Below, piece by piece: positions 5,735 through 40,041 of a DNA stretch of 64,000 nt. Position 1 is the stretch's first letter; each line of letters begins with the position of its first letter. The position numbers and the translations under genes were made by a program. The stretch spans positions 90,751 through 154,750 of the forward strand of contig CAIMWE010000025.1 of NCBI GenBank assembly GCA_903845115.1. The letters run 5' to 3'. This DNA is from an uncultured Acidobacteriota bacterium (GTDB taxonomy: Bacteria; Acidobacteriota; Thermoanaerobaculia; UBA5066). The notes beneath the pieces were generated by a model. The model saw only the letters and a list, made by a program, of their open reading frames with translations, did not search any database and had not been told where the DNA came from.

Positions 5735-6466
5735 TCACTTCCGGGGGCCGGCTCCCGTGCACGGCCCGTCGGCGATCCCTTCCACGGGGTTCCCCTCGGC
5801 GTCGTAGATCACCTTGTGCTCGGCCGGCGTGGCGATGATCTCGTCGTATTCCACCACGGGGATGAACTGCGGGGTGTAGGCGGCGCCGGCCGCCTCGAGG
5901 AGGCTCACGAACGAGCGGAGGTGATTGCGGGAGCCCTTGGCCAGGTTCTGGCAGAGAGTGTCGACGTCAGCGTTGTCGGCCGCGGCCAGGAGACCCTCGA
6001 CGTCGGAGATGTCCAGATCCTCGATGGTGGCTCCCACCGTCAGGGCGGAGACGAGGCTCGCCCGACCGCTCTCGACGAGGCTGACATAGAGGGCCTGCAG
6101 GCGGGCGTTCGAGAAGACACCCGGGGCCGCGTCGGCCACCGGGTTGGCGAGGGCGTAACGGTCGAGGAGGAAGGCGACGGCGTCCATGTGCTGCTGCTCG
6201 GCGGCGGCGATGTTGGTGAAGGCGCGCTGGCCCCAGGTGGCCGCCATCGCGATGTAGACGTCGCGAGCGAGCTTCTCCTCCTCGATGGTGAAGAGGAGGC
6301 CGGCCTTCTCGGCGTCGTTCAGGGGCTGGACGGGCAGCGTGGACATGTACGAGGTGAGGCCGTCGCACGGGGGCGCGGCGGGCTTGCCTTTGGCGGTGGC
6401 GGCGAGCGGCGCGGCGAAAGCGAGGGCGGCGGCGAGCGCGAGGATCTTGATGGCGGGGCTTTTCAT
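5735..6466 (-). CDS. DUF2202 ferritin-like secreted protein (copy a)
   Basis: Signal peptide; EEEKLARDVY, AAAEQQHMDAV (ExxH) and GSRNHLRSFV motifs. Confidence 0.85.
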   Translation of the reverse strand: MKSPAIKILALAAALAFAAPLAATAKGKPAAPPCDGLTSYMSTLPVQPLNDAEKAGLLFTIEEEKLARDVYIAMAATWGQRAFTNIAAAEQQHMDAVAFLLDRYALANPVADAAPGVFSNARLQALYVSLVESGRASLVSALTVGATIEDLDISDVEGLLAAADNADVDTLCQNLAKGSRNHLRSFVSLLEAAGAAYTPQFIPVVEYDEIIATPAEHKVIYDAEGNPVEGIADGPCTGAGPRK

Positions 6467-6601: not shown

Positions 6602-6946
6602 TCAGCCGCGGCCGCCGCGCCGGCCGGACGATCCCCGGCTGCCCGACCCCTGGCTGCCCTGCGGGCCCGTCCCGGTGCAGGTCCCGGACCCGGAGCCGAT
6701 GCCGGATCCGGCGCCCAGGCCGCCGTTCAGGGAAGGCGCCGTCTTGTTCGACGTGCCGAAGCCGTTGCCGTCCTTGGGACCGACGCCCTGGTTTCCGGTC
6801 CCGTCGCCCGGGCCGAGCTTCCGTCCCGACTCCGCCTGGGGGCCCTTGCCGTTCTGGGTGGCCTGCTGGGCGCTGGCGGGAAGGGTGGCGGCGAGGAGGA
6901 AGGTCCCCACGATGAGGGCCGCGGTGGTCTTGCTGTTGAAGTTCAT
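6602..6946 (-). CDS. Short secreted Gly/Asp-rich protein (GDG protein, copy a)
   Basis: ATG at 6946 with AAAGGGGAAC RBS; signal MNFNSKTTAALIVGTFLLAATLPASA; GPGDGTGNQGVGPKDGNGFG. Confidence 0.75.
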   Translation of the reverse strand: MNFNSKTTAALIVGTFLLAATLPASAQQATQNGKGPQAESGRKLGPGDGTGNQGVGPKDGNGFGTSNKTAPSLNGGLGAGSGIGSGSGTCTGTGPQGSQGSGSRGSSGRRGGRG

Positions 6947-7009: not shown

Positions 7010-7026
7010 CTCAAGAGTCGTGCCAC
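7010..7026 (-). promoter_or_regulatory. Putative sigma54 -24/-12 promoter of GDG protein a
   Basis: Minus strand reads GTGGCACG-ACTC-TTGAG: perfect TGGCACG, N4, then TTGA in place of TTGC; about 64 nt upstream of the ATG. Confidence 0.55.
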
Positions 7027-7118
7027 GGGAAGGCCGTAAAGCCGGTGAATGCGCTGGAGGCCGCATGAACAGAGGCTTTGCTTGCGTTGAAGGGGCGCCG
7101 GACCGGAGTTCTCGGGCG

Positions 7119-7134
7119 CTGCAGTTCTTGCAGG
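7119..7134 (-). promoter_or_regulatory. Putative activator (UAS) site, CTGCA-N4-CTGCA
   Basis: Minus strand CCTGCAAGAACTGCAG; 13/16 identical to ACTGCAAAACCTGCAG at 11311-11326; about 95 bp upstream of the -24 box. Confidence 0.5.
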
Positions 7135-7163
7135 CCGGCAGAAAGAGTCGCGGGGGCTCCGCG

Positions 7164-8552
7164 TCAGCCGGACCCGGGCTCCGCGTCATCGCGGCCGGGT
7201 TCCCCCCACTCCTTCAGCTTGCGGGCGAGGGTCTTTCGCTCGATACCGAGGATCCGGGCCGCGGCCGTCCTGTTCCCGCCCATCGCCGCGAGGACCTCGA
7301 GCGCGTGGCGACGCTCGACCTCCGCGAGGCTGGGGAACTCCTCGGCCTTCCCTCGAACGGCCGGGGGGGGTGGACTGGCCAACGGAGGCGTCGCGGCTGG
7401 GCTGGACGCCGCCAGGAGGTTCCGTGCGACGCCGGCGTCCCCGAGGGCGCCGGTGTCGATCAGGAGGCGCGTCACGGCGTGCTCGAGCTCTCTCACGTTC
7501 CCGGGCCACTCGTGCCCCGCGAAAGCCGAGAGGACGCCCTCGGTTGCGGACGGAGCAGCAGGCAGCCCCAGTTCCTTCGCGGCGTTCCTGCCGAAGTGGT
7601 CGACGAGGAGGGGGAGGTCCGAGATCCTCTCCCGGAGCGACGGCAGGCGGATCTCGTATCCGGCGAGCCGGAAGTAGAGATCCTGGCGGAATGCGCCGGT
7701 GGACGCGAGCGCGGAGAGGTCCCGGTGGGTCGCCGCCACGACGCGCACGTCGACGCTCTCCCCCCGCTCCGCGCCGACGGGACGGACGGTCTTCTCCTGC
7801 AGGAAACGGAGCAGCTTGGTCTGGAAGGCCGCGGAGACGTCGCCGATCTCGTCGAGGAACACCGTTCCGTGCTGGGCCTCGCGGATGGCTCCCCGGCGGT
7901 CGCGGTCGGCCCCGGTGAAGGAGCCGCGGACGTGCCCGAAGAGCTCGCTCTCGAGGAGCGTGTCCGGGATCGCCCCGCAGTGGACGGCGACGAACGGCCC
8001 GTCCGGATGCCGGCCGAACCTGTGGAGGGCCCGGGCGACGAGCTCCTTGCCGGTCCCTGTCTCGCCAAGGACGAGGACGGCGACCGAGAGGTGCGCGACG
8101 CGCGCCACGGCGTTGTAGACCTCGACCATCGCTGGGTGAGAGCCGACGATGAGGCTCTCCGGCCCGTCGGGACCGGCGGCCACCGCCTTTGGACGGGGTG
8201 CGAGGGCCCGCTGGACGCGGGCGACGAGAACGGTGACGTCGAACGGCTTGGCGAGGTAGCCCGCGGCACCGAGCCGGGCGGCGACCGTCGCGGTTTCGAC
8301 GGTTCCCCTCGCCGTCATCAGGAACACCTGCGGAGGGTTCTTCCCTTCCCTCAGGCGCGAGAGGAGGGACAGCCCGTCCTCGCCGGGCATGTAGATGTCG
8401 CTGAGGACGAGGTCGACGGGGCCGAGCGAGAGCTGCGCGATCGCCTCCGCGACGCTGGCCGCGCTCCGGACGGCGTGGCCGGCCTTCTCCAGGGCGAGGG
8501 CCGCCATCTCGCGAACGGCTCGGTCGTCGTCAACGACGAGAATCGAGGCCAA
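7164..8552 (-). CDS. NtrC-family sigma54-dependent response regulator (REC-AAA-HTH_8)
   Basis: ILVVDDD REC domain; GETGTGKELVARALH Walker A; GSFTGA loop; C-terminal AARILGIERKTLARKLKEWG Fis-type HTH. Confidence 0.9.
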   Translation of the reverse strand: MASILVVDDDRAVREMAALALEKAGHAVRSAASVAEAIAQLSLGPVDLVLSDIYMPGEDGLSLLSRLREGKNPPQVFLMTARGTVETATVAARLGAAGYLAKPFDVTVLVARVQRALAPRPKAVAAGPDGPESLIVGSHPAMVEVYNAVARVAHLSVAVLVLGETGTGKELVARALHRFGRHPDGPFVAVHCGAIPDTLLESELFGHVRGSFTGADRDRRGAIREAQHGTVFLDEIGDVSAAFQTKLLRFLQEKTVRPVGAERGESVDVRVVAATHRDLSALASTGAFRQDLYFRLAGYEIRLPSLRERISDLPLLVDHFGRNAAKELGLPAAPSATEGVLSAFAGHEWPGNVRELEHAVTRLLIDTGALGDAGVARNLLAASSPAATPPLASPPPPAVRGKAEEFPSLAEVERRHALEVLAAMGGNRTAAARILGIERKTLARKLKEWGEPGRDDAEPGSG

Positions 8553-10326
8553 GGCCAGACTCCTTCCCCGGTCGGGCCCCGTCGAGGAGGGGGAGGGCGA
8601 TCTCGAAGACGCTGCCCGATCCTTCCCCGCCCCGCACCGAGACGCGGCCGCGATGCCAAGCTACCACCTCGTGGACGAGCGAGAGCCCCAGCCCCAGGCC
8701 GTCAGTGCCGGTCGCGCCGCTGCCCCGCACGAAACGCCCGAAGACCTGCTCCCGCTCCGCCTCGGGAATTCCCGGTCCCTCGTCGGCGACGGCGACGAAG
8801 GCCTCGTTGCCCCGCCGCCCGGTCGTGACCAGGACGCTGGCGCCGGGCGGCGAGAACTTCAGCGCGTTCCCGATCAGGTTGTCGATCGCGCGCGACAGCG
8901 AGGGCTCGTCCCCCAGGACGAGGATCTCTTCGCCGGCACTGCCCCAACGCACACGCCCTGCGGATGCTGTCCCGAGCGCAAGGGCTCGCTTCCCCGCGAG
9001 GGCGCCCAGATCCACGGGTCCGGCCGTCCGGTCGAAGTCCCGGAGGCGCAGGCGCTCGGCGGCGTTGAGCGATTCGATCATGCCGCCGAGTCGCTCCGTC
9101 TCCTCTCCGACCATCGCCGTCACGCGCTGTCGTTCCTCCGGGGTCAGGTCGAGGCCGGAGAGGAGCTGGGTCAGGCCGCGAACGGCGGTGAGGGGGGTCT
9201 TCATGTCGTGGACGGCGACGCGGCGCGCCTCTCGCTCCTCCTCCCGCGCGGCGGCAGACAGGGAGGCCGCCTTCTCGTCCCGCCGGACCGCGAGGGCTTC
9301 CACCCAGAGGGTCGAGGCGAGACCCGCGATCGAGAGCGTCGCGAGGGGCAGCTCGATTCCTGCCGCGAGGAGCGGAATGCCGAGGACGGCCGGCAGGATC
9401 GCGAGCGCCGCAAGCGAAGATCGGCGACGCTTGCGTCCGGCTCTTCCGACGGCGAGCGCGAGGGCGGCCAGGGCCGCGCTGCAGGTGGCGGAGACGAGGG
9501 GTGGGGCGGGCTGGAGGAGCCCGTGGCGGAGGATGCAGGCCGTGGCGGCCGCGTGGACGAGGACGCCCGGCTCGGGCGTTCCGGGCGGTCCCCCGGGAGT
9601 GACGTACCGGTCTCCGAGGCCGGCCGCGGTGATGCCGAGGAGGACGACACGGTCCCGGAGCGCGGAGCCGGCCTGCCCGGCGAGCGCGGCGGCCGCACCG
9701 ACGACCGTTACGTCTCCGGGCCGGCACCGGAAGTCGGGGACCAGGACTCGCCCGACCGGAACCGGGCGCCGCCAGCCTTCCGAGAGGCCCGCTGCGGCGA
9801 GGGAGAGCGCCGTCCGCGAGACACCCCTCCGCTGCTTGGTCGAGCTCAGCCTGCGCACGACGCCGTCGTGGTCGACGTCGAAGGAGGTCTCGGCGATCCC
9901 CGCGGCGGCCCGCAGCGGCGCGGCCGGTTCGACCCAGCCCGCCTTCGCGTCCAGGGCCACGGCGAGGATCGACGGGAGGCGGCGCAGACTCGCCGCCAGG
10001 GTTTCGTCGTCAGCGGCCGGTTCCGCGAGGAGGACGTCCACGGCCAGGCCTCGGCTCCCGCCGAGTCGTACCGCGTCGACGAGCTCGGCCAACCGCGCCC
10101 TGGGCCAGGGCCACGGTCCCACGACGTCGAGGGCGTCCTCGTCGATGGCGACCACGGCCACTCCCGCCGGAGAGCGCGAGGGGAGGAAGCGCAGGAAGGC
10201 GTCCCGGACCGGGAGGTCGATGGAGGCCGGCAGACCGGAGGCCAGGGAAAGCGCCACGCCGATGAAAACGGCAGAGACGGCGGCCACCGCGAGGGCGGGC
10301 GGGCGAGGAACGCGGCTCTCGGGCAT
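8530..10326 (-). CDS. CHASE2 sensor histidine kinase
   Basis: ATG at 10326; extracellular VAVVAIDEDALDVVGPWPWPRARLAELVDAVRLGG CHASE2 motif; VHDMKTPLTAVRGLTQLL H-box; HATPase DNLIGNALKFSPPGA...GLGLGLSLVHEVVAWHRG. Confidence 0.9.
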   Translation of the reverse strand: MPESRVPRPPALAVAAVSAVFIGVALSLASGLPASIDLPVRDAFLRFLPSRSPAGVAVVAIDEDALDVVGPWPWPRARLAELVDAVRLGGSRGLAVDVLLAEPAADDETLAASLRRLPSILAVALDAKAGWVEPAAPLRAAAGIAETSFDVDHDGVVRRLSSTKQRRGVSRTALSLAAAGLSEGWRRPVPVGRVLVPDFRCRPGDVTVVGAAAALAGQAGSALRDRVVLLGITAAGLGDRYVTPGGPPGTPEPGVLVHAAATACILRHGLLQPAPPLVSATCSAALAALALAVGRAGRKRRRSSLAALAILPAVLGIPLLAAGIELPLATLSIAGLASTLWVEALAVRRDEKAASLSAAAREEEREARRVAVHDMKTPLTAVRGLTQLLSGLDLTPEERQRVTAMVGEETERLGGMIESLNAAERLRLRDFDRTAGPVDLGALAGKRALALGTASAGRVRWGSAGEEILVLGDEPSLSRAIDNLIGNALKFSPPGASVLVTTGRRGNEAFVAVADEGPGIPEAEREQVFGRFVRGSGATGTDGLGLGLSLVHEVVAWHRGRVSVRGGEGSGSVFEIALPLLDGARPGKESGLGLDSRR

Positions 10327-10373
10327 GGAGGATCGATATTGTCCTCTGCGTTTCACCGCTCCGCCGGGCAAGA

Positions 10374-10390
10374 GTGGCCCGGGAGTTGCG
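10374..10390 (+). promoter_or_regulatory. Putative sigma54-like promoter of FecR gene
   Basis: GTGGCCCG-GGAG-TTGCG: one mismatch in -24, intact TTGC at -12, GG-to-GC distance 12 bp. Confidence 0.4.
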
Positions 10391-10416
10391 TCGATCAAAC
10401 CGGAGGTCTCGACGTG

Positions 10417-11154
10417 ATGAGAATGCGGCGCGTCGCCCCTTACGTCTTCGTCGTGCTCGCGATCGCTGCCGTCGCGCTCGCCGAACAGCCGGCTGGGCTG
10501 CCGGTCGTGTACCGATTCGACGAGGTGAAGAGCAAGGTGATGCGCCTCCCCGGGGCTGATCCGAAATCCGAGGAAGTCAAGGCAAAGGCCGGAGACGCCG
10601 CAGCAGCCGGCGACACGGTCCGGACCGGCTTCTGGGGCCGGGCGATCCTCTCGGTCCCGGACCGGGCCTGCCGATTCGAGGTCTTCTCGTCCACCAGGGT
10701 CCGGCTCGCCGGCGGCGAGCCCGGCGTGATCCTGTTCCTCGAATCCGGGAGGCTCGAGGCCTTCTTCGACAAGTTCACGGGGGCGGCCGAGGAGCGACGT
10801 GTCGCCGCGCCGGGTGCGCTCCTCGTCGTCCGGGGAACGCGGTACGGAGTCGAGACGGGAGCTGGAGAACAGTCCACTCTGGCAGTGTTCGAGGGGACGG
10901 TGGAAGTGCTCCCCACGGCGCCGGGCGCTCGTCGTCTGCTCGTGGGACCCGGCGAGTACGGCGTCTTCGGGCCGAAGATCTCGCCTCGAAAGGGAGCCAT
11001 AGCCCCGGGCGCGGATGAGAGATCGTGGCGGAGCCGGGGCACCGCCGCGCTGGAAGGCTCTTCCGGGCTGCAGCAGGGGCAGGGCCCCCAGACTCCGCTC
11101 GGAACCGGCTCGCAAGGCCGCGGTGGCCCGTCCGCGTCTCGCGGCGGACACTGA
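10417..11154 (+). CDS. FecR-domain secreted protein
   Basis: VFSSTRVRLAGGE..., ARRVAAPGALLVVRGTRYGVETGAGEQSTLAVFEGTVEV FecR core; signal peptide; divergent from the CHASE2 kinase. Confidence 0.75.
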   Translation: MRMRRVAPYVFVVLAIAAVALAEQPAGLPVVYRFDEVKSKVMRLPGADPKSEEVKAKAGDAAAAGDTVRTGFWGRAILSVPDRACRFEVFSSTRVRLAGGEPGVILFLESGRLEAFFDKFTGAAEERRVAAPGALLVVRGTRYGVETGAGEQSTLAVFEGTVEVLPTAPGARRLLVGPGEYGVFGPKISPRKGAIAPGADERSWRSRGTAALEGSSGLQQGQGPQTPLGTGSQGRGGPSASRGGH

Positions 11155-11270
11155 CACCCATCCCCGTCGGCTCGTCAGGTCCGGCCCCGGCCAGTTCGTT
11201 GTGTGGGCATCGCGAGCAATACGCCGTCGTCCGGGCGTTCGGGCAAACGCATTCGCGGGCCCTGTTCCAC

Positions 11271-11326
11271 CTGCAACCCCCACTTCCATTGCAGTCGCAT
11301 TGCAGGTCCGACTGCAAAACCTGCAG
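11271..11326. promoter_or_regulatory. Cluster of five TGCAG/CTGCA half-sites (putative enhancer/UAS)
   Basis: Half-sites at 11271, 11290, 11301, 11312, 11321; includes perfect inverted repeats TTGCAGTCG/CGACTGCAA (11289-11297/11309-11317) and TGCAGGT/ACCTGCA (11301-11307/11319-11325). Confidence 0.55.
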
Positions 11327-11365
11327 CTGGATCGTGAAGACCCGCAGGAAATGGGCTTCGGGGAC

Positions 11366-11382
11366 CTGGCACGAGGGATGCG
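11366..11382 (+). promoter_or_regulatory. Putative sigma54 -24/-12 promoter of GDG protein b
   Basis: CTGGCACG-AGGG-ATGCG versus consensus YTGGCACG-N4-TTGCW; GG-to-GC distance 12 bp; 58 nt upstream of ATG 11440. Confidence 0.65.
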
Positions 11383-11439: not shown

Positions 11440-11709
11440 ATGAAACCTCGCTCGCTCATCGCGCCGGTCGCACTCCTCCTCGTCTCCGCGTTCGCCCTCT
11501 CGGCCAGCGCCGCTCCGGCCTCGAACGGACCCGCCGTCAAGAAACAGGCCCCGGCCGCCAGCACCCAGGGCAAGGGCAACGGCCCCGGCGATGGCAGCGG
11601 TCCCTACCAGCCCGGCGACGGGACCGGCTACGGCGCGAAGAAGGGCATCGGCGACGGCACCTGCATCCCGCTCGGCGACCAGATCCGCCGGATGTTCGGG
11701 AAGAAGTAA
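11440..11709 (+). CDS. Short secreted Gly/Asp-rich protein (GDG protein, copy b)
   Basis: RBS AAAGGAGA before ATG 11440; signal MKPRSLIAPVALLLVSAFALSASA; GNGPGDGSGPYQPGDGTGYGAKKGIGDGTC. Confidence 0.75.
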   Translation: MKPRSLIAPVALLLVSAFALSASAAPASNGPAVKKQAPAASTQGKGNGPGDGSGPYQPGDGTGYGAKKGIGDGTCIPLGDQIRRMFGKK

Positions 11710-12596: not shown

Positions 12597-13790
12597 ATGC
12601 GGCTGTCCGGAACGCCCGTCCGTCTCGTCGTCCTCCCTGCAGGGATCCTGGCGGTGGCTCTCGTGGCCACCGCCTTTCTCGCGTCCAGCTCGCTCTCCCA
12701 GCGCGACGCCGCAGTGCGTGAGGGAATCCTGGTCCGGGCCGGCCACGACGTCGAGACAAGGCTTCGGGAAGTCACTCCGGCGGACGCCCCAGCCGTCCTG
12801 CAGGCCTTCCTGGGCGAGAACGCCGAGACGATCGAGGGGATCGAGGTTGCCGGGCCCGACGGCCCGATCGCCTCGGCCGGCACGGCCCGGCCAGGGGCCT
12901 TCGAGATGCCCGCGGCCCTCGGGCGGGAGTGGCGATCCCTGGTCGTTCCCGGCGGTGGACGCGGGCGCGGCCAGGGCGGGCCGGGAATGGCACCGTTCCG
13001 GCTCCGACTCTCCCCGTCTCCGTGGCTCGGGCAGGAAGGGGTGCTGTCGATGGTGGTGGCGGGAGGCGGGCTCGTCGCGGGCCTGGCCCTGGTCGGGCTC
13101 TCGCTCTTCGCGGCGCGGGGGCTCGAACAGCGGCAGCGGCTGCTGACGGCCGAGGCCGAGCGGCGTCGCCTCGCCGCCGTCTCGCTGGCCGGCGCCGGGC
13201 TGGCTCATCGGGTCCGGAACCCGCTCGCGGTGATCAAGGGGACCGCCCAGCTCCTCGAGGAGAAGCTCTCCGGACAGGAACGCGAGCGCGCGACCCGGAT
13301 CGTGGCGTCCAGCGAGAGGATAGAGTCGCTCCTCTCCCGGCTCCTCGACTTCGCAAGACCCACCGAGGCCGAGCCGGAGGAGCTCGACCTGGCCGACCTC
13401 GCGCGCCAGGTGGCCTCGCGGACGGTCCCTCCGGCCAGCGTGGCCGCCGCCGGACCCGTCTGGGCCTTCGTCGACCGCGATCAGGCCGAGAGCATCCTCG
13501 AAGAGCTCCTCGCGAACGCCCGCGCTTTCGATCCCGGGGGCCCGATCGAGGTCACCGTGTGCGCCGAGAGGGGGACGGCCCTCCTGGAGGTCCTCGACCG
13601 GGGGCCGGGTCCGGGTGTCGATGCCGGACGGGCGTTCGACCCCTACGTGACGTCGCGCCCCGACGGGACCGGCCTGGGCCTGGCGATCGTGAGGGCCCTG
13701 GCCGAGACCAACGGCGGCTCGACGTCTCTGGCAGCGCGCAGCGGCGGCGGCACGGTCGCGTCGTTCCGGGTCCCTTCCGGGGGAAACTAG
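12597..13790 (+). CDS. Sensor histidine kinase
   Basis: ATG 12597; two TM segments; AGLAHRVRNPLAVIKGTAQLLEE H-box; GTGLGLAIVRALAETNGG HATPase. Confidence 0.85.
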   Translation: MRLSGTPVRLVVLPAGILAVALVATAFLASSSLSQRDAAVREGILVRAGHDVETRLREVTPADAPAVLQAFLGENAETIEGIEVAGPDGPIASAGTARPGAFEMPAALGREWRSLVVPGGGRGRGQGGPGMAPFRLRLSPSPWLGQEGVLSMVVAGGGLVAGLALVGLSLFAARGLEQRQRLLTAEAERRRLAAVSLAGAGLAHRVRNPLAVIKGTAQLLEEKLSGQERERATRIVASSERIESLLSRLLDFARPTEAEPEELDLADLARQVASRTVPPASVAAAGPVWAFVDRDQAESILEELLANARAFDPGGPIEVTVCAERGTALLEVLDRGPGPGVDAGRAFDPYVTSRPDGTGLGLAIVRALAETNGGSTSLAARSGGGTVASFRVPSGGN

Positions 13791-13793
13791 GGC

Positions 13794-15071
13794 GTGGCTC
13801 GAATCCTCGTCGTCGATGACGAAGCCCCGTTCCGGACCCTGATCCGGGAGATCCTCGAGGAAGCCGGCCACGCCGTGGTCGAAGCGCGCGACGGCGCGGA
13901 GGCGCTCGCCTTCCTCGAACGTTCCCCGGTCGACGTCGTCCTGACGGACCGCCGGATGCCGAAGATGGACGGGATCGAGCTGCTGCGGCGCCTCCGGACG
14001 AGGCCCAGGCCGCCGAAGATCGTCGTCCTGACCGCCTTCGGCACGATCCCGGAGGCGGTGGAGGCGGTTCACCTCGGCGCCTCTGACTACATCACCAAGC
14101 CCCTTCCCTCGCCAGGGGCCCTCGTCGACCTTGTGGCAAGCCTCCTGCCGCGGGAGGAGGACGGCCACGAGTTCGTCTCGGCCGACCCCAAGACCGCAGA
14201 GGTGTTGACCGTCGTCGATCGGGTCGCCCCCCGCGACGTCTCCGTCCTGGTCACCGGGGAGTCGGGAACCGGGAAGGAGCTGATCGCGAGGAGGCTCCAC
14301 GCACGGTCAAGTCGCGCCTCGGGACCGTTCGTGGCTGTGAATGCCGCCGCCCTCCCCGATTCGCTGGCCGAGAGCGAGCTGTTCGGGATCGACAGGGGTG
14401 CCTACACCGGGGCCGACCAGCCGCGCGCGGGGCGTTTCGAGGAGGCATCGGGCGGCACCCTTTTCCTCGACGAGGTGGGGGAGCTCTCGCTCGCGATCCA
14501 GGCGAAGCTCCTACGGACGCTCGAAGAGCGGACGGTTCGCAGGCTCGGAGGCACCCGCGATCTCCCGGTCGATGTCCGGCTGGTCGCGGCCACGAATCGC
14601 GACCTGGAGGCCGAGGGAGCGAACGGGAAGTTCCGGACCGATCTCTATTTCCGGCTCGCCGTGGTCGGGATCCACCTGCCGCCTCTCCGCGAACGTCCCG
14701 CCGACATCCCGGCCTTGGCGCGCCACCTCGTCGGGATCCTGTCGGCGCGGCACGGAGTAAATCCCGCGCCGCTTTCGGCGGGAGCGCTGGACTCCCTGGC
14801 AGCGTGGAACTGGCCGGGCAACGTCCGGGAGCTGCGGAACGTCCTGGAGCGGGCGATCGTGATCCGGGGAAACGAGCCCCTCCGGCCCGAGGACTTCGTG
14901 CTCGGCTCCGGGCGCCCTTCGGCGGCCCCTCTCCACCGCGAGCAGCGCGAGCGGGAGGCGGTCCTGGAGGCCCTCCGGCTGAGCGGCGGCAGGCGCGACG
15001 AGGCCGCGAAGCACCTGGGGATCTCGGTCCGGACGCTTTACTACCGGCTCAAGCAGTGGGGGGTCGGCTGA
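13794..15071 (+). CDS. NtrC-family sigma54-dependent response regulator
   Basis: GTG start; [40 protein letters not shown] variant of GAFTGA; Fis-type HTH AAKHLGISVRTLYYRLKQWG. Confidence 0.9.
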   Translation: MARILVVDDEAPFRTLIREILEEAGHAVVEARDGAEALAFLERSPVDVVLTDRRMPKMDGIELLRRLRTRPRPPKIVVLTAFGTIPEAVEAVHLGASDYITKPLPSPGALVDLVASLLPREEDGHEFVSADPKTAEVLTVVDRVAPRDVSVLVTGESGTGKELIARRLHARSSRASGPFVAVNAAALPDSLAESELFGIDRGAYTGADQPRAGRFEEASGGTLFLDEVGELSLAIQAKLLRTLEERTVRRLGGTRDLPVDVRLVAATNRDLEAEGANGKFRTDLYFRLAVVGIHLPPLRERPADIPALARHLVGILSARHGVNPAPLSAGALDSLAAWNWPGNVRELRNVLERAIVIRGNEPLRPEDFVLGSGRPSAAPLHREQREREAVLEALRLSGGRRDEAAKHLGISVRTLYYRLKQWGVG

Positions 15072-17431: not shown

Positions 17432-18003
17432 GCGGGGAAGACGACGCGCGGCTGCTCGCCCGCGCCGCGCTGGGCGATGGAAATGCCTTCGAGATCCTCG
17501 TTGTCCGGCACCGGGCGGCGGTTTACCGCTACGCGCGGTCCGTCGCCGCAGGTGCCTCCGACGCGGAGGACGTCCTTCAGGAGACCTTCCTTGCCGCATG
17601 GCGGGGCGCGGGCGGATTCGAGGGTCGATCCTCAGTCCGGACTTGGCTCCTCGTCATCGCTCGGAATCGAGCCCTTCGCTCGCGGGAACAGTTGGCGGCT
17701 CGTCGGGAGGATGGGGGAGCGTCGCTGGTCGAGCTCGGAATCCGGGCCGGCTTCGGGTCGGATGATCCGGAGAGGATCGCCGTGGCGGCCGAACGCAGGA
17801 ACGCCCTTGACGGGGCACTTGCCTCGCTCGACCGCGAGGACCGCGAGATCCTCGTCCTCCGTGATATCGAGGCTATTCCGGGGGAAGAGTGCGCGGAAGC
17901 TCTCGGGCTCTCGGTGCCGGCGATGAAGAGCCGGCTTCACCGGGCACGTCTCCGCCTCGTCGCCGCGGTCCATTCGACGACGGGCGAAAAGAGCGGCCGA
18001 TGA
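17410..18003 (+). CDS. ECF-type RNA polymerase sigma factor
   Basis: GTG start; AEDVLQETFLAAWRG (sigma2), REILVLRDIEAIPGEECAEALGLSVPAMKSRLHRARLRL (sigma4). Confidence 0.85.
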   Translation: MSDEESLSGEDDARLLARAALGDGNAFEILVVRHRAAVYRYARSVAAGASDAEDVLQETFLAAWRGAGGFEGRSSVRTWLLVIARNRALRSREQLAARREDGGASLVELGIRAGFGSDDPERIAVAAERRNALDGALASLDREDREILVLRDIEAIPGEECAEALGLSVPAMKSRLHRARLRLVAAVHSTTGEKSGR

Positions 18004-18287
18004 GCCAGGAGAGGCCGGGCCAGCGCCTGGTGGGAGACCTCTGGTGCGAAGACGTGCTCGCCGTCCTCTCGGACCTGGTCGACGGCGAGCTGGGCTCCGA
18101 GGTCCAAGACAGGGTTCGGGCTCACGTTGCCGGCTGCGACGAATGCAGCCGATTCGGGGAAGAATTTGCGCGCGTGATCCGTGCCCTGCGAGAGGGGCTC
18201 GGGCCTGCGGAGGAGCCGGGACCGAATGTGGAAGCTCGGCTTGCCTCGCGTCTGGCATCGGTCCTCGAAAAGAGGAGCGGAAGGTAG
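18000..18287 (+). CDS. zf-HC2 anti-sigma factor
   Basis: CEDVLAVLSDLVDGELGSEVQDRVRAHVAGCDECSRF; ATGA overlap with sigma gene. Confidence 0.75.
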   Translation: MSQERPGQRLVGDLWCEDVLAVLSDLVDGELGSEVQDRVRAHVAGCDECSRFGEEFARVIRALREGLGPAEEPGPNVEARLASRLASVLEKRSGR

Positions 18288-18351
18288 GTCCCCGCGCAGG
18301 GGCCTTGGACGCCGTCGAATGACAGGACTTCATGGGAAAGGGAGTATCTAG

Positions 18352-19809
18352 ATGAGCAGGCTGGTGATCCTGGGAGCGGGAATCGCGGGACAGACGGCGG
18401 CCCTCCACGCGGCGCGAAAGCTGGGGCGGAACCACGAGGTCGTGGTCGTCTCGCCGAACAGCAAGTGGAACTGGATCCCGTCGAACATCTGGGTCGGCGT
18501 CGGGGTGATGAAGCCCGAGGACGTCACCTTTCCCCTCAAGCCGGTCTACGACAAGACCGGGATCACGTTCCACCAGGCCAAGGCGGTCAGCCTCCACCCC
18601 GAGGGGGACGAGAGCGGCCCGAGGCCCTTCGTGACGGTGGAGTTCACCGAGCCCGGCAGGGCTGGCCAGGTGGAGAAGGTCCCTTACGACTACCTGATCA
18701 ACGCCACGGGGCCGAAGCTGAACTTCGGGGCGACGAAGGGGCTGGGCCCTGCCGCCAACAGCCACTCGGTCTGCACCTACGATCACGCCGCCCAGGCCTC
18801 GAAGGCGCTGGACGAGGTCGTGGCACGGATGAAGAAGGGCGAGAAGCAGACCCTCGTGATCGGGACCGGCCACGGGATGTGCACGTGCCAGGGGGCGGCG
18901 TTCGAGTACATCTTCAACGTCGAGTCGGAGCTCCGGCACCGGGGGGTCCGGGACAAGGCGCGGATCGTCTGGCTCTCAAATGAGCACGAGCTGGGCGATT
19001 TCGGGATGGGCGGGATGTTCCTCCGCCGGGGCGGGTACGTCACCCACAGCCGGGTCTTCACGGAGTCCCTCTACACCGAGCGGGGCATCGAGTGGATCAC
19101 GCAGTCCCACGTGAAGGAGGTCGCCCCGGGCGAGATCTTCATGGAGAACCTCGACGGGGAGGAGAGCTCCATCAAGGCCGACTTCTCGATGCTGATCCCG
19201 CCGTTCGCCGGCGTCGGGCTGAAAGCCTTCGACCGCGCCGGCGCCGACGTGACCAGTTCCCTCTTCGCGCCGAGCGGCTTCATGTTCGTCGACGCGGACT
19301 ACTCGAAGAAGCCCTTCGAGGAGTGGAAGCCCTCCGACTGGCCGGAGGTCTACCAGTCGCCGAAGTACCCGAACGTCTTCGCGGTCGGGATCGCCTTCGC
19401 GCCCCCCCATCCCATCTCCAAGCCGATGGTCTCGACGAAAGGGACGCCGATCTCGCCGACGCCTCCCAGGACCGGGATGCCGTCCGGGGTGATGGCGCGC
19501 GAGGTCGCCCTGAACGTCGTCGACCTGATGACGGGGCGCGAGAAGGAGCCGACCCGGAAGGCATCGATGGCCCGGATGGGGGCGGCCTGCATTGCGTCGG
19601 CGGGGGCCGGCGTTCTCCGTGGGACTGCCGTCTCCATGACGCTCTACCCGATCATCCCCAACTTCGAGAAGTACCCCGACACCGGGCGCCAGCTGAAGTA
19701 CACCTTCGGCGAGATCGGGCTCGCCGGGCACTGGATCAAGCACCTGCTCCATTTCGGGTTCATCTACAAGGCGAAGGCGAATCCCCTCTGGATCGCCATT
19801 CCGGAGTAA
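18352..19809 (+). CDS. sqr: Sulfide:quinone oxidoreductase-type FAD protein
   Basis: LVILGAGIAGQTAALHAARKLG; NWIPSNIWVGVGVMKPEDVTFPL; GTGHGMCTCQGAAFE; Cys-rich redox positions. Confidence 0.75.
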   Translation: MSRLVILGAGIAGQTAALHAARKLGRNHEVVVVSPNSKWNWIPSNIWVGVGVMKPEDVTFPLKPVYDKTGITFHQAKAVSLHPEGDESGPRPFVTVEFTEPGRAGQVEKVPYDYLINATGPKLNFGATKGLGPAANSHSVCTYDHAAQASKALDEVVARMKKGEKQTLVIGTGHGMCTCQGAAFEYIFNVESELRHRGVRDKARIVWLSNEHELGDFGMGGMFLRRGGYVTHSRVFTESLYTERGIEWITQSHVKEVAPGEIFMENLDGEESSIKADFSMLIPPFAGVGLKAFDRAGADVTSSLFAPSGFMFVDADYSKKPFEEWKPSDWPEVYQSPKYPNVFAVGIAFAPPHPISKPMVSTKGTPISPTPPRTGMPSGVMAREVALNVVDLMTGREKEPTRKASMARMGAACIASAGAGVLRGTAVSMTLYPIIPNFEKYPDTGRQLKYTFGEIGLAGHWIKHLLHFGFIYKAKANPLWIAIPE

Positions 19810-19821
19810 GAGAGGAACGCC

Positions 19822-19968
19822 ATGCCGGTCCGCACACAGTTCGGCCAGTCCTACTACCCGCCCGTCCCGACCCCCTTCACCCAGAGGATGAGGACGAATC
19901 TCCTCTGGCAGCTATTCCGCTTCCTCGTCATCAACGTGAAGATCCTGAGAATGGTGCGAAAGCACTAG
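19822..19968 (+). CDS. 48-aa small protein downstream of sqr
   Basis: Not in the supplied ORF track; RBS AGAGGAA before ATG; MPVRTQFGQSYYPPVPTPFTQRMRTNLLWQLFRFLVINVKILRMVRKH. Confidence 0.6.
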   Translation: MPVRTQFGQSYYPPVPTPFTQRMRTNLLWQLFRFLVINVKILRMVRKH

Positions 19969-19999
19969 GAATCGGCGGCAGCCGACTCCCGACCGCGGC

Positions 20000-20161
20000 T
20001 CAGCCGCCGCGCTGGCCGAAGAGGCGTTCGAGTAGAGACTTCGGCGGCGGGCAGGTGCAACGATTCTGGAGGGGCACGTCTGCGAGGGCCTGTTCGACGT
20101 GCTGCCCGCATCCCGCCCAAGTTGGCTTCTTACAGATCGGACACTGAATCTGCTGACACAT
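20000..20161 (-). CDS. 53-aa Cys-rich protein, putative zinc-binding
   Basis: MCQQIQCPICKKPTWAGCGQHVEQALADVPLQNRCTCPPP; I recognise the CxxCxKPTWAGCGxHxxxAL pattern from small conserved proteins. Confidence 0.65.
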   Translation of the reverse strand: MCQQIQCPICKKPTWAGCGQHVEQALADVPLQNRCTCPPPKSLLERLFGQRGG

Positions 20162-20489
20162 GAGGGCCGGATTCTCGCACGGCCTGACGGGATCACGCGC
20201 CCCCCTCCAGCGAGAGAGGGCTGCGGCTCCATCTTGACCGAGCCTCGGTCGAGTCGAGCCGTTGGTTCTTCGTCCGGAGAGCCGCAATGAAGCGCTGCGG
20301 CCGGGAACCGGCACGCCATCCGAGGGGTTCTCCCCGACGGCGAGCTCGGGCCCCTCTGGGAGGAGCCCGGACCATCCGCGTTCGTCCCAGTGCGACGAGT
20401 AGAATCGAGGGCGGACCGAGGGCCTCCTCGCCCGTGCGTACCCAGGTTCTCGAGACGCGGGCAGCGAGCCCCATGGGAAGGGAAGCCGA

Positions 20490-20885
20490 ATGATGAGCAT
20501 CCTGGAACGGGTTCTGGGTCCCGCATCGAAGTCCGACCGGCGCTTGCCTTACACGTACGAGGCGAAGGTCCCGGTCTCGGGAGCCAAAGGGGTGGTCCAG
20601 CACTACCTGAACGACACCCTGTGTGGTCTCCTCGAGGCCCTGGACAACGCGGGGATTTCTCCCGACGAGGTGCAGATCGTCGAGGTCCGGCCCGAAGGGG
20701 ATGCCCCCGTGCTCATCGAGCACTGCACGGGGCCGGGCGGCAAGTGGCTTCGGCGCCCCGAAGCCTGTCGTTCGTTCAAGGCCCACTACGCGGGACACAC
20801 GGACGAGGGCCGATGCTGCTACGTGGACCGCAGCCGGGAAGCCGCCGGGCCGTTCGTGGAGCTCGAGCCCACGAAGGAGGGCTAG
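20490..20885 (+). CDS. Conserved hypothetical protein
   Basis: Intact ORF directly abutting the CGGC gene; no recognised family. Confidence 0.6.
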   Translation: MMSILERVLGPASKSDRRLPYTYEAKVPVSGAKGVVQHYLNDTLCGLLEALDNAGISPDEVQIVEVRPEGDAPVLIEHCTGPGGKWLRRPEACRSFKAHYAGHTDEGRCCYVDRSREAAGPFVELEPTKEG

Positions 20886-21332
20886 ATGAGCGCTCCCGTG
20901 AAGATCGGCATCATCATCTGCGACCGATACAAGGGCTGCGCCGGGGGCAAGTGCTTCCGCGCCCTGCGCGAGCGAGAGGGGGCCTTTTCCGCCTACGCGG
21001 GCCGCGACGTGGAGCTCGTGGGGTTCACCTCCTGCGGCGGCTGCCCCGGCGGGAACATCGAGTCCGCTCCGGAGGAGATGAAGAAGAACGGCGCCGAGGT
21101 CGTCCATCTGGCCACGGGATTCCTCGTCGGATACCCGCCGTGCCCCCACGTCGAGCACTTCAGGAAGATGATCCCCGCGCGATTCGGCCTCGAGGTGGTG
21201 ATCGGCACGCACCCCGTTCCCCAGAAGTACTACCAGGCGCACTGCGCGCTGGCCAGCTGGACGGCGCCGGAGTGGAAGGACCTGCTCTCGCCGAGCCTGG
21301 CCGACGAGGCGACGCGGATCCGGTACAACTGA
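20886..21332 (+). CDS. CGGC domain protein
   Basis: IGIIICDRYKGCAGGKCFRAL...GFTSCGGCPGGNI motif. Confidence 0.85.
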   Translation: MSAPVKIGIIICDRYKGCAGGKCFRALREREGAFSAYAGRDVELVGFTSCGGCPGGNIESAPEEMKKNGAEVVHLATGFLVGYPPCPHVEHFRKMIPARFGLEVVIGTHPVPQKYYQAHCALASWTAPEWKDLLSPSLADEATRIRYN

Positions 21333-21458
21333 CGGCGGCGGGGCAGGTCGCGTCCGGCGGCTACAGGCAATCGCCGGAGTCCAGACGGCCCTCCTCTCGG
21401 GGACGGCCGGCAAGGCCCTCGCGTCGCCGCTCGCCCTCTTCTTCCGGCTCGACCCGCG

Positions 21459-23105
21459 CTACCGGCCCGGCGCGCCGGCGGCAGGGGCCGGCGCCGCGGG
21501 CGGGACCTCGCCCGCGCCCTCGGTCGGCAACGGGATCCCGTTCGCCCGGAACATGCCGAGGAGCCCCGTCCTGTCGACGCACTTGAGGTACGCCTCGCGC
21601 GGCTCGACGACCTTCCGTTTCACGAGGTCGAGCAGCGAGTCGTTGAGCAGGATCATCCCCTGGTTCCGCGACGTCTGGAGGACCGACGGTAGCTGGAACG
21701 TCTTTCCGTCCCGGATCAGGTTCGCGACGGCGTTGTTGGAGAGGAGGATCTCGAGCGCGGCCACCCGCCCCCCGCCGATCTTCTTGCAGAGCGTCTGGGC
21801 GACGACCGCCTTGAGCGAGTCGGCCAGCATCACCCGGATCTGCTGCTGACGGTCCGCCGGGAACTGGTCGACGATCCGGTCCACGGTCGACATCGCCGTG
21901 GTCGTGTGCAGCGTGCCGAAGACGAGGTGGCCCGTCTCCGCGGTCTCGATCGCGATCGCGATCGTCTCGAGGTCCCGCATCTCCCCGACGAGGACGATGT
22001 CGGGATCCTCCCGGAGGGCGGCGCGGAGGGCGTCCTTGAACCCGCGCGTGTGGGTCCCCACCTCCCGCTGGTTCACGAGGCACTTCCGGTTCTGGTGGAC
22101 GAACTCGATCGGGTCCTCGATCGTGATGATGTGGTCGGTCCGCGTCTTGTTGATGTGGTCGACGATGGCGGCGAGCGTGGTCGACTTGCCCGAGCCGGTC
22201 GGGCCCGTGACGAGGACGAGGCCCTTCGACAGCTCGGCGAGCCTCACGACCGCGTCGGGGAGGTTCAGCTGCTGGGCCGTCAGGATCTCGATCGGGATCT
22301 GCCGGAAGACCGAGCCGACGCCGAACCGGTCGCGGAACACGTTCACCCGGAAGCGCGCCACGTCCGGGATCTCGTAGGCGAAGTCGGTATCGTTTCGCTC
22401 CACGAATTCGGAGCGGTTCCTCTCCGGCATGGCGCCGCGGAGGAGCCGCTCGATCTCGTCGGAGTGGAGAAGGGGGATGTCCTCCTGGGGCCGCATGTCG
22501 CCGTGAATCCGGAAGATGGGGATGTTCCCGGCCGACAGGTGGACGTCGGACGCCTTCATCTCGAGCATCCGGATCAGGAGGTCGTCGAGGGGGCGGCCCG
22601 TCTGGACCTTCGGGTGCGGCGGCCCTGGAGCCGGCTCGGGCGGCGCCTCTGCCGGGAGCGACGGCGCCGAAACCGCGGGGGCGGGAGGCGGCAGGGCGGC
22701 CGACGGGGGCGGCGGAGGGAGCGGGGAGACCGGGGCGACCGGCGCGACCGGGGAGACCGGGGAGACCGGGGCTGTTGCTCCAGGCTGCCGGACCCGCGCG
22801 ACCATCAACGCGACCCGTCCCTGGACCATCCCGAAGCGCACCTCGACCGGCTCCGAGTCCGGGTGGATGAGGACGGGAATCCGGGCCCTCTCCTCGGCGA
22901 GCGCGGCAGGGATCGCGCCCGGCCTCAGCTCGGCGACCACCGCGAGGAAGGTCTCGTCCGAGAGGGGCTCCCGTCCCACCACGGTCCGCGTGTGGCCATG
23001 CGTCAGGTAGAGCTTCTCGCGGGGGACGAGGTAGAGCGCGTCCCCGTCCGTCTGCAGGAAGCTCCGGACCAGCGCTTCGACCTTGGACGGTGCGTAGGTC
23101 GTCAT
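21459..23105 (-). CDS. pilT: PilT/PilU-type twitching motility ATPase with N-terminal extension
   Basis: LVLVTGPTGSGKSTTLAAIVDHINK Walker A; ASDVHLSAGNIPIFRIHGDM; LREDPDIVLVGEMRDLETI; LHTTTAMSTVDRI. Confidence 0.9.
   Translation of the reverse strand: MTTYAPSKVEALVRSFLQTDGDALYLVPREKLYLTHGHTRTVVGREPLSDETFLAVVAELRPGAIPAALAEERARIPVLIHPDSEPVEVRFGMVQGRVALMVARVRQPGATAPVSPVSPVAPVAPVSPLPPPPPSAALPPPAPAVSAPSLPAEAPPEPAPGPPHPKVQTGRPLDDLLIRMLEMKASDVHLSAGNIPIFRIHGDMRPQEDIPLLHSDEIERLLRGAMPERNRSEFVERNDTDFAYEIPDVARFRVNVFRDRFGVGSVFRQIPIEILTAQQLNLPDAVVRLAELSKGLVLVTGPTGSGKSTTLAAIVDHINKTRTDHIITIEDPIEFVHQNRKCLVNQREVGTHTRGFKDALRAALREDPDIVLVGEMRDLETIAIAIETAETGHLVFGTLHTTTAMSTVDRIVDQFPADRQQQIRVMLADSLKAVVAQTLCKKIGGGRVAALEILLSNNAVANLIRDGKTFQLPSVLQTSRNQGMILLNDSLLDLVKRKVVEPREAYLKCVDRTGLLGMFRANGIPLPTEGAGEVPPAAPAPAAGAPGR
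22723..22767 (-). repeat. Five tandem 9-bp units encoding a Pro/Val linker
   Basis: Plus strand GGGGAGACC, GGGGCGACC, GGCGCGACC, GGGGAGACC, GGGGAGACC. Confidence 0.9.
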
Positions 23106-36461: not shown

Positions 36462-36847
36462 CGGTCGCCCCTCTTCTCGAGGACCGCGCGAGCGAGCGGC
36501 CGCCGGGCCGGTCCCGATGTCGCGCGCCCCTCGGAGTCGAACCGGCTGCCGTGGCAGGGGCACGCGAAGGCGCCCGACGGGAGGGGGGCGACCCGGCAGC
36601 CGAGGTGGGTGCACTCGAGCGAGAGGGCCTTCGGCGCGGAGGGGGTCCCGGTCAGGAAGAGGGGGCCGACGGCGATCCCCTGCCCACCGTCCCCCGACAG
36701 GCGCTGGACGAGGTCGGATGGGAGATCCACCTCCCTGCTTTCCCCCTTCGCGGCCAGCGACTTCCAGACGACCCCGAGCCCCAGGACCGAGAGCGCCGCT
36801 CCCGTCCAGCGCCAGACTTCGCCCAGGAAGTCGCGCCGGGAGCTCAT
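36443..36847 (-). CDS. Rieske [2Fe-2S] protein
   Basis: [12 protein letters not shown] signal/anchor; [29 protein letters not shown]. Confidence 0.92.
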
Positions 36848-38229
36848 TCGATGCCGAGTTCGTGCATCCGCCGCCAGAGCGTGCTGCGGCTGATGCCGAG
36901 GGCCTTGGCCGCGAGGCTCCGGCTCCAGTGCTGGGCCGCCAGCGCCTCGACAATCCTTCTCCTGTCCGGGTCCGCGTCCCCCGCCGCGGCCGCCGGGCTG
37001 GCCGGGATCTGGGCGGCCCGGGAGTCCGACATCTCCGCGAGCAGCTCGGGCGGCAGGTCCTCGATCTGGATGGTCTGGCCGGCGCAGAGCGTGACGGCGT
37101 ATTCCAGGGTGTTCTCCAGCTCGCGGACGTTCCCGGGCCAGGGGTAACGCTCGAGCACCGCGAGCGTGTCGGGGGAGATCCGGAGGGAACGCCCCGCCCG
37201 TCCGCCGCTGTGCGCCAGGAGGTGCGGGGCGATCAGGGCGATGTCCTCGGGCCGCTCGCGGAGCGGCGGGATGCGGATCGGGACGACCCGGAGCCGGTAG
37301 AAGAGGTCCTCGCGGAACCGGCCGTGCGCGATCGCGCTCTGAATGTCGCTGTTGGTGGCGGCGATGATCCGCGCGTCGAAGGCACGGGAGACGCTGTCGC
37401 CCACCCGCTCGAACTTCCGTTCCTGGATGACACGGAGGAGCTTGGCCTGGAGGTGGACCGGCAGGTCTCCGATCTCGTCCAGGAAGATCGTCCCCCCGTT
37501 GGCCAGCTCGAAACGCCCGACCCGGTCCTTCACCGCCCCGGTGAACGCCCCCCGGACGTGCCCGAACAGCTCACTCTCGAGCAGCTCGCCGGGAAGGGCG
37601 GCGCAGTTCACCGCGATCAGGGGCCCCGCGCTCCTGGGAGAGTGCGCGTGGAGGGCCCTCGCGAGCACCTCCTTTCCGGTGCCGCTCTCCCCCGTGATCA
37701 GGACGGTCGAGTCGCTCCGGCTGAGCGATTCGACGAGGTGGACGATCCGGAGCATCGCCGGGGAGCGGGCGATCAGCCCGTGCGACGCGATGGCCGTCTG
37801 GAGGAAGCTGACGTCGTCCTCCGCGGGCCGGAGGACGATCAGGTAGGTGGCCCTGGGGTCGCAGTGGTTCGAGACGTGCCGGGGGATGACGGCGGCGGTC
37901 AGGGAGACGAGCCGCGCGCTCCCCTCCCCGCACCGGAGGAACGCCCGGCGTCCCTCCTCGCGCCGCCCCCTGGAGAGGGACTCCCGGAGCGAGTCGGAGG
38001 GACCGAAGAGCTTCGCCCCGACCAGCTCCTCGATCGGCTTCCCGATCGCCTCGGCCGCGGCCCCCTTGAAGGTGATCTCGTCGATCGTCTGGCTGACCCG
38101 GATGATCTTGAAGTCCTCGTTCAGGACGATCAGCGCCCGGCCGAGGGCCTCGAAGACCGTTTCCAGCGTCTCGAAGCCGGGATTCCCTTCCGTCACCGCG
38201 GGCAGGACGCTGTCGCTCGACGCCATCAT
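36844..38229 (-). CDS. PAS-domain sigma54-dependent transcriptional activator
   Basis: N-terminal PAS-like [45 protein letters not shown]; Fis-type HTH. Confidence 0.88.
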
Positions 38230-39953
38230 TTCCCCTCGGCCACTTCCCGGCGGTCCGCGGCCGCCATCAGGCCCCTCAAGCTGTCGGCGATCGTCGCAGG
38301 GATCGAGGTGAACCGGACGCGTACCGACGCCTCGGACCTCTCCACCACCTTCGCGAAGAACTGGTCCCGCACCTCTCCGGCCTCCATCTCGATCCGGAGG
38401 TCGGCGAGGAGCGCCGGCAGGGGGTCGGACCGCATCTCGCCGCCCCGGAGGCAGATCGACGTGAACTCGGCCCGCGCGGCGTCCCCTTCCACCCGCTTGT
38501 CGGTGAGGAGCGAGAACCGGACGGGGAGGTTCGCCTCGAGCGGCCTCGGCGAGAAGCCGTTCGGAGGGAGCGCGAGATCGTGGGGCGGGCCGATCCCGAG
38601 GAGCTCGTGGACCGTGACCGGGTCGCGGAATCCCTTCGAGTTCAGCGCCGTGGCGGCGCCCGTCACGAGCCCTTCGCCCGCCGCCTTCCGGGTGCTGTCG
38701 GAGATCAGGATCTGCCCCCCCACCGTGAACGACTCGATCCGCCCGGTGAGATTGACGTGGCTCCCCACGACGCCGTACTTGGCCCGCTCCTCCGATCCGA
38801 TGTTCCCGACGAGGACCTCGCCCGTGTTCAGGGCGATGCCCATCTCGAGCGGCGGGAGTCCCCTCCGGGCGGCGGCCTCGTTCACCTCGCCCATGGCGAT
38901 CTGCATCTCGAGGGCGCAGGCCACCGCGCGGGTGGCGTCGTCCGCCGCCGTGAAGGGCGCTCCGAAGAGAGCCAGGACCGCGTCGCCGATGAACTCGTCG
39001 ATCGTCCCGCGATACCGGTGGATGACGCGGGTCATCGTGCCGAGGTAGGAGTTCAGGACCGCCATGACGCGCTCGGGCTCGATCCCCTCGGAGAGCGTCG
39101 TGAAGCCGCGGAGGTCGGCCATCAGGATCGTGACGGTCCGCTTCTCTCCCCCGAGGAGGAGACCTTCCGGGTCGGAGAGAAGCCGGCCAACGACGTCGTC
39201 GCTCAGGTAGCGCCCGAACGTCTTCTGGATGAAACGGTTCTTGTTCCCCAGCTCCTTCGCCAGACGCTCCGTCTTCTGCTTGGCCTCCTTCAGGCGAATG
39301 TGGGTCTCGAGCCGGGCGAGGACGACGGGGAAGTCGATGGGCTTGGTGACGTAGTCGTTGGCGCCGAGGCGGAGCGCCTCGACGATCTTGTCGCTCTCCC
39401 CCTGGGCGGTGGTCATGATGACCGGGAGGTCCGCCGGCGAGAGCCGCTCGCGGATCGACCGCAGGACGTCGAGCCCCGTCAGGACGGGCATGACGACGTC
39501 GAGGAGGATGGCGTCGAAGCTCTCTCGCTGGACGGCCCGGAGCGCCTCCGCCCCGTCCCGCGCCACGGAGACCTGGTACCCGTGCGAGCGGAGTCTCCGG
39601 GAGAGCATCTGGAGGTTGACCTCGTTGTCGTCCACCACGAGGAGCCGTTCCGAGACCTTCTCCGGACCGGTCCCGATCTCGGGAGCGGCCTCCGGAGGGG
39701 CGGGAGGGGAAACCGTCCCTTCGTCGGCCAGCCCGTCGAGGAGGGCATCGAGGTTCCTCGCCGCGGCCTGGATCCTCTGGAGGTCCGGGAGCGGCGAGGT
39801 CCACCCCTTCGCGGTCAGCTCGTCCGCGACGAGGCCCGCGTAGCCGAGGATCTGGTGGATGGGTGTCTTGAGCTCGTGGCGGAGCGTTCGGCCCGTTCTG
39901 CCGGTTCGGGGTTCCGGCTTGCCGCCGCGGCCTCGTCCGCTCTCGTCGCTCAT
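38226..39953 (-). CDS. HisKA-like/REC/class III nucleotide cyclase fusion
   Basis: LRHELKTPIHQILGYAGL; LLVVDDNEVNLQMLSRRL REC; VTILMADLRGFTTLSEGIEPERVMAVLNSYL...GDAVLALFGAP cyclase. Confidence 0.85.
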   Translation of the reverse strand: MSDESGRGRGGKPEPRTGRTGRTLRHELKTPIHQILGYAGLVADELTAKGWTSPLPDLQRIQAAARNLDALLDGLADEGTVSPPAPPEAAPEIGTGPEKVSERLLVVDDNEVNLQMLSRRLRSHGYQVSVARDGAEALRAVQRESFDAILLDVVMPVLTGLDVLRSIRERLSPADLPVIMTTAQGESDKIVEALRLGANDYVTKPIDFPVVLARLETHIRLKEAKQKTERLAKELGNKNRFIQKTFGRYLSDDVVGRLLSDPEGLLLGGEKRTVTILMADLRGFTTLSEGIEPERVMAVLNSYLGTMTRVIHRYRGTIDEFIGDAVLALFGAPFTAADDATRAVACALEMQIAMGEVNEAAARRGLPPLEMGIALNTGEVLVGNIGSEERAKYGVVGSHVNLTGRIESFTVGGQILISDSTRKAAGEGLVTGAATALNSKGFRDPVTVHELLGIGPPHDLALPPNGFSPRPLEANLPVRFSLLTDKRVEGDAARAEFTSICLRGGEMRSDPLPALLADLRIEMEAGEVRDQFFAKVVERSEASVRVRFTSIPATIADSLRGLMAAADRREVAEGK

Positions 39954-40041
39954 CCTGTTTCGGGGCGCACCCGGGGCGAAGTCTAATGCACGCCCCCCCC
40001 TCGGGGATTGACAACCGGCCCGTTTCGGCGACCCTCCAGGG

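Follow-up and report, generated by a model that had tools for sequence, protein, structure and literature searches.

A candidate sigma-54 two-component regulon for secreted glycine-rich GDG proteins and ferritin-like DUF2202 proteins in an uncultured acidobacterium

How are two gene pairs, each coding for a small secreted glycine-rich protein (GDG1 or GDG2) and a ferritin-like DUF2202 protein, switched on in an uncultured, high-GC member of the Acidobacteriota, and by which of the regulators encoded beside them? The pairs lie in a 64,000-nucleotide stretch of DNA, here called the window, for which an earlier note, made from the sequence alone, had proposed a sigma-54 −24/−12 element in front of each GDG gene. 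The genes are ordered HK1, RR1, GDG1 and DUF2202 on the minus strand, and FecR protein, GDG2, DUF2202, HK2 and RR2 on the plus strand:

5735–6466, minus strand: ferritin-like DUF2202 protein with signal peptide, downstream of GDG1 (PF09968, 175 bits)
6602–6946, minus strand: GDG1, small secreted Gly-rich protein with GDGTG repeats, 114 aa
7164–8552, minus strand: RR1, NtrC-type sigma-54 activator (profile matches; loop GSFTGA)
8530–10326, minus strand: HK1, CHASE2-domain sensor histidine kinase, overlapping RR1 (profile matches)
10417–11154, plus strand: FecR-domain secreted protein, divergent from HK1 (profile matches)
11440–11709, plus strand: GDG2, small secreted Gly-rich protein, 89 aa
11777–12580, plus strand: ferritin-like DUF2202 protein downstream of GDG2, MJ0754 homologue (PF09968, 188 bits)
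12597–13790, plus strand: HK2, sensor histidine kinase with periplasmic loop (profile matches)
13794–15071, plus strand: RR2, NtrC-type sigma-54 activator (loop GAYTGA), favoured as binder of the palindrome described below

Both DUF2202 proteins score well over the PF09968 gathering cut-off of 22. An alignment of 23 proteins has Glu72, Glu98, His101, Glu157 and His190 invariant, a set that would fit a di-metal site. Homology to MJ0754, the solved DUF2202 member (PDB 3q4n, 3q4o, 3q4q and 3q4r, one entry with bound zinc), is clear both in sequence (E 5e-58, 52% identity over ~170 residues) and in the predicted model (pLDDT 84; TM 0.98–0.99 of target), with weak structural matches to ferritin-like diiron proteins coming next; the window proteins differ from MJ0754 in their signal peptides, their Gly-rich stretches and their putative sigma-54 two-component control. 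A literature search for DUF2202 and MJ0754 found no paper mentioning DUF2202. The GDG proteins match no Pfam or NCBIfam family above cut-off, and a sub-threshold TrAA12 match of GDG2 (E 5e-4) was taken as low-complexity noise. We also observed that positions 7–2429 of the window hold two NosL-like genes flanked by two DsbD-type membrane proteins, copper and thiol-redox surroundings beside the DUF2202 cluster.

The machinery for sigma-54 transcription is in place. The genome contains a single, full-length rpoN gene (541 aa, with an intact RpoN box, ARRTVAKYRE), a point that the earlier note had singled out for checking. RR1 and RR2 are both complete NtrC-type regulators, with a PF00072 receiver, a PF00158 AAA+ domain bearing a GAFTGA-type loop and a PF02954 Fis-type helix-turn-helix; their loops read GSFTGA and GAYTGA, as first noticed. 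Elsewhere in the window, another large sigma-54 activator reading frame (36844–40179, minus strand) carries GAFTGA. The two promoter candidates are:

7011–7025, minus strand: candidate sigma-54 −24/−12 promoter of GDG1, TGGCACGACTCTTGA (TGGCACG ACTC TTGA; last −12 base changed from C to A), predicted transcription start ~6999
11367–11381, plus strand: candidate sigma-54 −24/−12 promoter of GDG2, TGGCACGAGGGATGC (TGGCACG AGGG ATGC), predicted transcription start ~11393

On re-reading, the full elements, GTGGCACG-ACTC-TTGAG (7026 to 7010, minus strand) and CTGGCACG-AGGG-ATGCG (11366–11382, plus strand), proved to have the sequences, strands and coordinates that the earlier note had given, together with the common TGGCACG and, in both, 12 bp from the GG to the −12 G. 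Both are intergenic, and the distance to the start codon, put previously at about 60 nt, is 64 nt for GDG1 (ATG at 6946) and 58 nt for GDG2 (ATG at 11440). The GDG2 site has GG at −24 and GC at −12 with 10 nt between the dinucleotides, a full fit to a sigma-54 promoter; the GDG1 site has the GG and the G with the C replaced by A, and we count it as of the same type.

Given that such short motifs recur by chance, we asked how far the two sites stand out. A position-specific scoring matrix for which 29 intergenic sigma-54 sites of Salmonella were used (PMC3844500, Table 3) places them first and second among the 127,972 positions of the window, with a per-position probability of ~3e-7 (order-3 Markov null, based on one simulated match). 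In the whole 5.85 Mb genome, for which the earlier note had proposed a ranking, GDG2 is tied at rank 8–10 and GDG1 at rank 17–20 among the 100 relaxed-consensus places listed. The bare consensus with at most one mismatch matches the genome 70 times, against 74 times for the reversed pattern; a sequence match by itself therefore proves little, and the case rests on position, conservation and linked elements. That genome-wide counts do not exceed those of the reversed control is what one would expect if the boxes were chance resemblances and the genes started elsewhere. We consider this very improbable in view of the position and orientation of the sites, their conservation, the paired palindrome and the permutation test, and of a search between 5600 and 15400 that found no sigma-70-like promoter.

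One point that speaks against a sigma-54 reading is the −12 box, which at GDG1 is without the near-invariant C and at GDG2 has A in place of the first T, the one weak base per promoter to which the earlier note had already pointed. Of the six TGGCAYR-N4-TTG matches within the same genome, four continue with A and two with C. In the window's family, 2 of 8 sites beside GDG, DUF2202 or Gly-rich genes have C at −12, and some family members have poor boxes (GTGG), whereas nearly all the sites outside the family have the C. Since C is rare at this position within the family and near-general outside it, we regard the deviation as a family trait and not a reading artefact. The same variants are found among the listed Salmonella sites (zraP, ATGC, as at GDG2; STM0649.S, TTGA; PMC3844500).

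We searched for DUF2202 genes in 61 relatives, ~400 genomes of the phylum and 274 genomes of the class of a Competibacteraceae genome. Where a DUF2202 locus has an NtrC-type neighbour, a sigma-54 site (at most one mismatch, within 900 nt upstream) is present in 8 of 15 cases, or 6 of 13 without the window, compared with 0.095 on average, and 2 at most, for 200 scrambled versions of the consensus. Perfect or near-perfect boxes lie 35–72 nt before the start codons at eight loci (L046, L051, L056, L092, L094, L095, L097 and L099), several as divergent pairs, and the −12 boxes of relatives are often better than those of the window. At locus L048, TGGCACGCGAATTGG is the orthologous counterpart of the GDG1 promoter. 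The DUF2202 loci sampled from Gammaproteobacteria as a contrast set (L111–L121) have OmpR-type rather than NtrC-type neighbours and no sigma-54 site. Among individual loci, that of a Competibacteraceae metagenome-assembled genome (L056) encodes GDG repeats fused to the DUF2202 C-terminus, with TGGCACGGATTCTGC upstream and an NtrC-type regulator adjoining, and in other lineages the divergent partner genes code for envelope proteins, His-rich or of other kinds (DUF4405, BON).

Upstream of both promoters we observed the same inverted repeat, CTGCA-N5-TGCAG:

7119–7133, minus strand: putative upstream activator palindrome of GDG1, CTGCAAGAACTGCAG, centre ~−127 from the predicted transcription start
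11312–11326, plus strand: putative upstream activator palindrome of GDG2, CTGCAAAACCTGCAG, centre ~−74

Further TGCA half-sites lie just 5′ of the GDG2 copy (~11289–11311). The exact palindrome occurs five times in the 5.85 Mb genome, twice at the GDG promoters and three times within genes, and the window holds six copies with at most one mismatch against 0.55 expected, a number reached by none of 100 shuffles. A de novo search for inverted repeats (5 bp, spacers of 0–14, 13 upstream regions) returned it first. Its start lies 55–122 bp before the −24 box, a distance usual for enhancers. Each promoter has a predicted upstream activator site, and one that is kept in relatives. Because the palindrome was noticed in the window and tested afterwards, independent evidence comes from its occurrence in other genomes: there the palindrome and promoter form a unit before genes for GDG, DUF2202 or Gly-rich secreted proteins, and the examined loci, 521 kb in total, hold 9 exact copies, every one upstream of genes of the GDG/DUF2202 system. 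The palindrome also resolved loci of the window's own family with degenerate −12 boxes (L045, CTGCAGGGCTTGCAG followed by CGGCACGGCGCTTGA; L050, CTGCAAATCTTGCAG followed by TGGCATCACTATTGA; L053; L048). We stress that its count per genome, ~1 per Mb, is no higher in genomes with RR2 than in those without, so that the support it lends is positional. Five loci of other lineages (L087, L088, L090, L092 and L094), at which the divergent gene codes for a DUF4405 protein or a His-rich DxDGDG protein, have other palindromes between divergent sigma-54 sites (CGTCA-N4-TGACG; TCGCA...TGCGA); the enhancer thus seems to vary with the regulator.

The window and its genome contain other sigma-54-like sites. 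The third-ranked site of the window by the same matrix is a weaker one before the FecR gene:

10375–10389, plus strand: sigma-54-like site, TGGCCCGGGAGTTGC (TGGCCCG GGAG TTGC)

We hold it as weaker because the predicted leader is only ~16 nt. It is without a CTGCA palindrome, and where conservation of a FecR promoter was looked for, at L051 and in the paralogous cluster on contig C13, the FecR gene is co-oriented with its regulator or target gene and lies behind it. The sole perfect TGGCACG-N4-TTGC of the genome (C191:27152–27166; L002/L110) is found 72 nt before a gas-vesicle GvpA-like gene, which suggests sigma-54 control of gas vesicles, and TGGCACGAGAATTGA (C24:5552–5566; L016/L128) is found 81 nt before a gene for a small secreted Lys-rich protein.

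Which activator would act at the two promoters? The earlier note held that promoters and neighbouring activators fit together, and the complete regulators, the presence of rpoN and the arrangement kept in relatives bear this out; a pairing of one activator with each promoter is probably too simple, given the common palindrome and its association with RR2 orthologues. Defined by at least 65% identity, these are present in every one of the family's 7 DUF2202-positive genomes and in one, G006, of its 7 DUF2202-negative genomes; the copy of G013 is a contig-end fragment. Right after the RR2 orthologue, G003 and G006 have the palindrome (as near-exact variants in G006) and the gene for a secreted Gly-rich protein. 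The RR2 orthologues form one clade (97/99) apart from the RR1 clade (98/100), in a reading of the tree that leaves out the C13 regulator. This co-occurrence of RR2 and DUF2202 within the family makes it probable that RR2 drives both promoters, rather than there being one regulator per gene.

The alternative that RR1 drives GDG1 and RR2 drives GDG2, each sigma-54 promoter with its own neighbour, is an unlikely one, though adjacency recommends it, also at L048, where an RR1 orthologue (74%) precedes GDG1. It draws further support from C13 (own genome, L127, ~18,000–23,000), a complete HK1-RR1-FecR paralogue in which a CHASE2 kinase, an RR1-like regulator (63% identical to RR1, activator loop GAFTDA) and a FecR protein accompany TGGCACGGAAATTGA, a sigma-54 site before a gene for a secreted Gly-rich protein. 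However, the C13 promoter has no palindrome even though its regulator and RR1 share the recognition-helix residues LGIERKTLARKL, while an identical palindrome is present at both promoters of the window and exact or near-exact copies accompany GDG, DUF2202 or Gly-rich genes in the RR2-bearing genomes G003, G004, G005, G006, G009, G013 and G060. The co-occurrence of palindrome and RR2, together with the lack of a palindrome at C13, is why we favour RR2 for both. As a site for RR1 itself we considered GGGTC-N5-GACCC, which is found at C13, at L048 and roughly at GDG1; the repeat is no commoner in the window than chance predicts and lies partly inside the RR1 stop region, and we keep it only as a lead. 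The C13 copy adjoins, by sequence reading, a CusA-like RND efflux pump and a heavy-metal-binding-domain-like protein. Less probable still is that the palindrome belongs to another factor and that the sigma-54-like boxes are used with a different activator, one of the ~31 to which strong PF00158 matches point in the genome. In favour of this, genomes with RR2 do not have more palindromes than those without; against it, the palindrome starts within the enhancer range given above and, in several genomes, lies directly after the RR2 gene.

From these observations, we hypothesize, with a probability of roughly 0.8, that both sites are sigma-54 promoters activated through CTGCA-N5-TGCAG by an NtrC-type regulator, RR2 being favoured; that they are genuine sigma-54 promoters is well supported by what can be read from the DNA. 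HK2, a membrane kinase, would phosphorylate RR2, encoded beside it, and RR2 would probably bind the palindrome; the promoters would open only when the NtrC-type regulator, bound ~75–130 bp upstream, acts on the RpoN polymerase. Two putative operons would then be expressed, each coding for a secreted GDG protein and then a secreted ferritin-like DUF2202 protein, with HK2-RR2, downstream in the second, probably co-transcribed. RR1, the CHASE2 kinase and the FecR protein would make up a related second system, in which RR1 may serve as an additional activator of GDG1 or act elsewhere, e.g. on FecR.

The mechanism proposed for this sigma-54 two-component regulon of DUF2202 and GDG proteins is ordinary and of a known kind; the regulon and its enhancer are new. 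The closest likeness is to ZraP-ZraSR, which likewise combines an envelope sensor kinase, an NtrC-type regulator and a sigma-54-controlled secreted target, and in which sigma-54 sites are listed both for zraP and for hydH (zraS) (PMC3844500), recalling the divergent site pairs of several relatives of the window. The targets here are GDG repeat proteins and DUF2202 rather than ZraP and match no ZraP family, and against the ZraS and ZraR equivalog models RR2 reaches 331.9 of 760 bits and HK2 104.6 of 479. The system would thus work like ZraPSR but does not, on these profile scores, belong to its family. BiofilmReg of Burkholderia (PMC5192318) resembles the RR1 part in that genes for a FecR-domain secreted protein and a regulator accompany that of a CHASE2 sensor kinase; its regulator is of the CreB/OmpR type, whereas RR1 is of the NtrC type. 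Extracytoplasmic products are shared with sigma-54 regulons of the cell exterior (Desulfovibrio, PMC4641369; PMC3162934; a 2025 multi-phylum survey, PMC12316311). In Desulfovibrio, the activator site precedes the promoter, in most cases by no more than 100 nt (PMC4641369). The words "ferritin" and "DUF2202" do not occur in the text of the Desulfovibrio study (PMC4641369), nor "ferritin", "DUF" or "Acidobacteri" in the survey (PMC12316311).

For the biology of the family, the locus points to a dedicated envelope response centred on an uncharacterised ferritin-like protein, and our guess is that its signal is extracytoplasmic metal or redox envelope stress. We put forward, tentatively and at less than even odds, the wider idea of a widespread, undescribed sigma-54 two-component stress regulon for secreted GDG and extracytoplasmic DUF2202 proteins, in which the −12 drift of the family (TTGA/TTGG/GTGG) would be compensated by the conserved enhancer. 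CTGCA-N5-TGCAG is a concrete binding prediction, and the family-wide −12 change tests how much departure from the sigma-54 consensus can be tolerated when the enhancer is retained. With DUF2202 genes recurrently placed behind sigma-54 promoters and provided with their own kinase and regulator, the signal, once found, would make their function testable.
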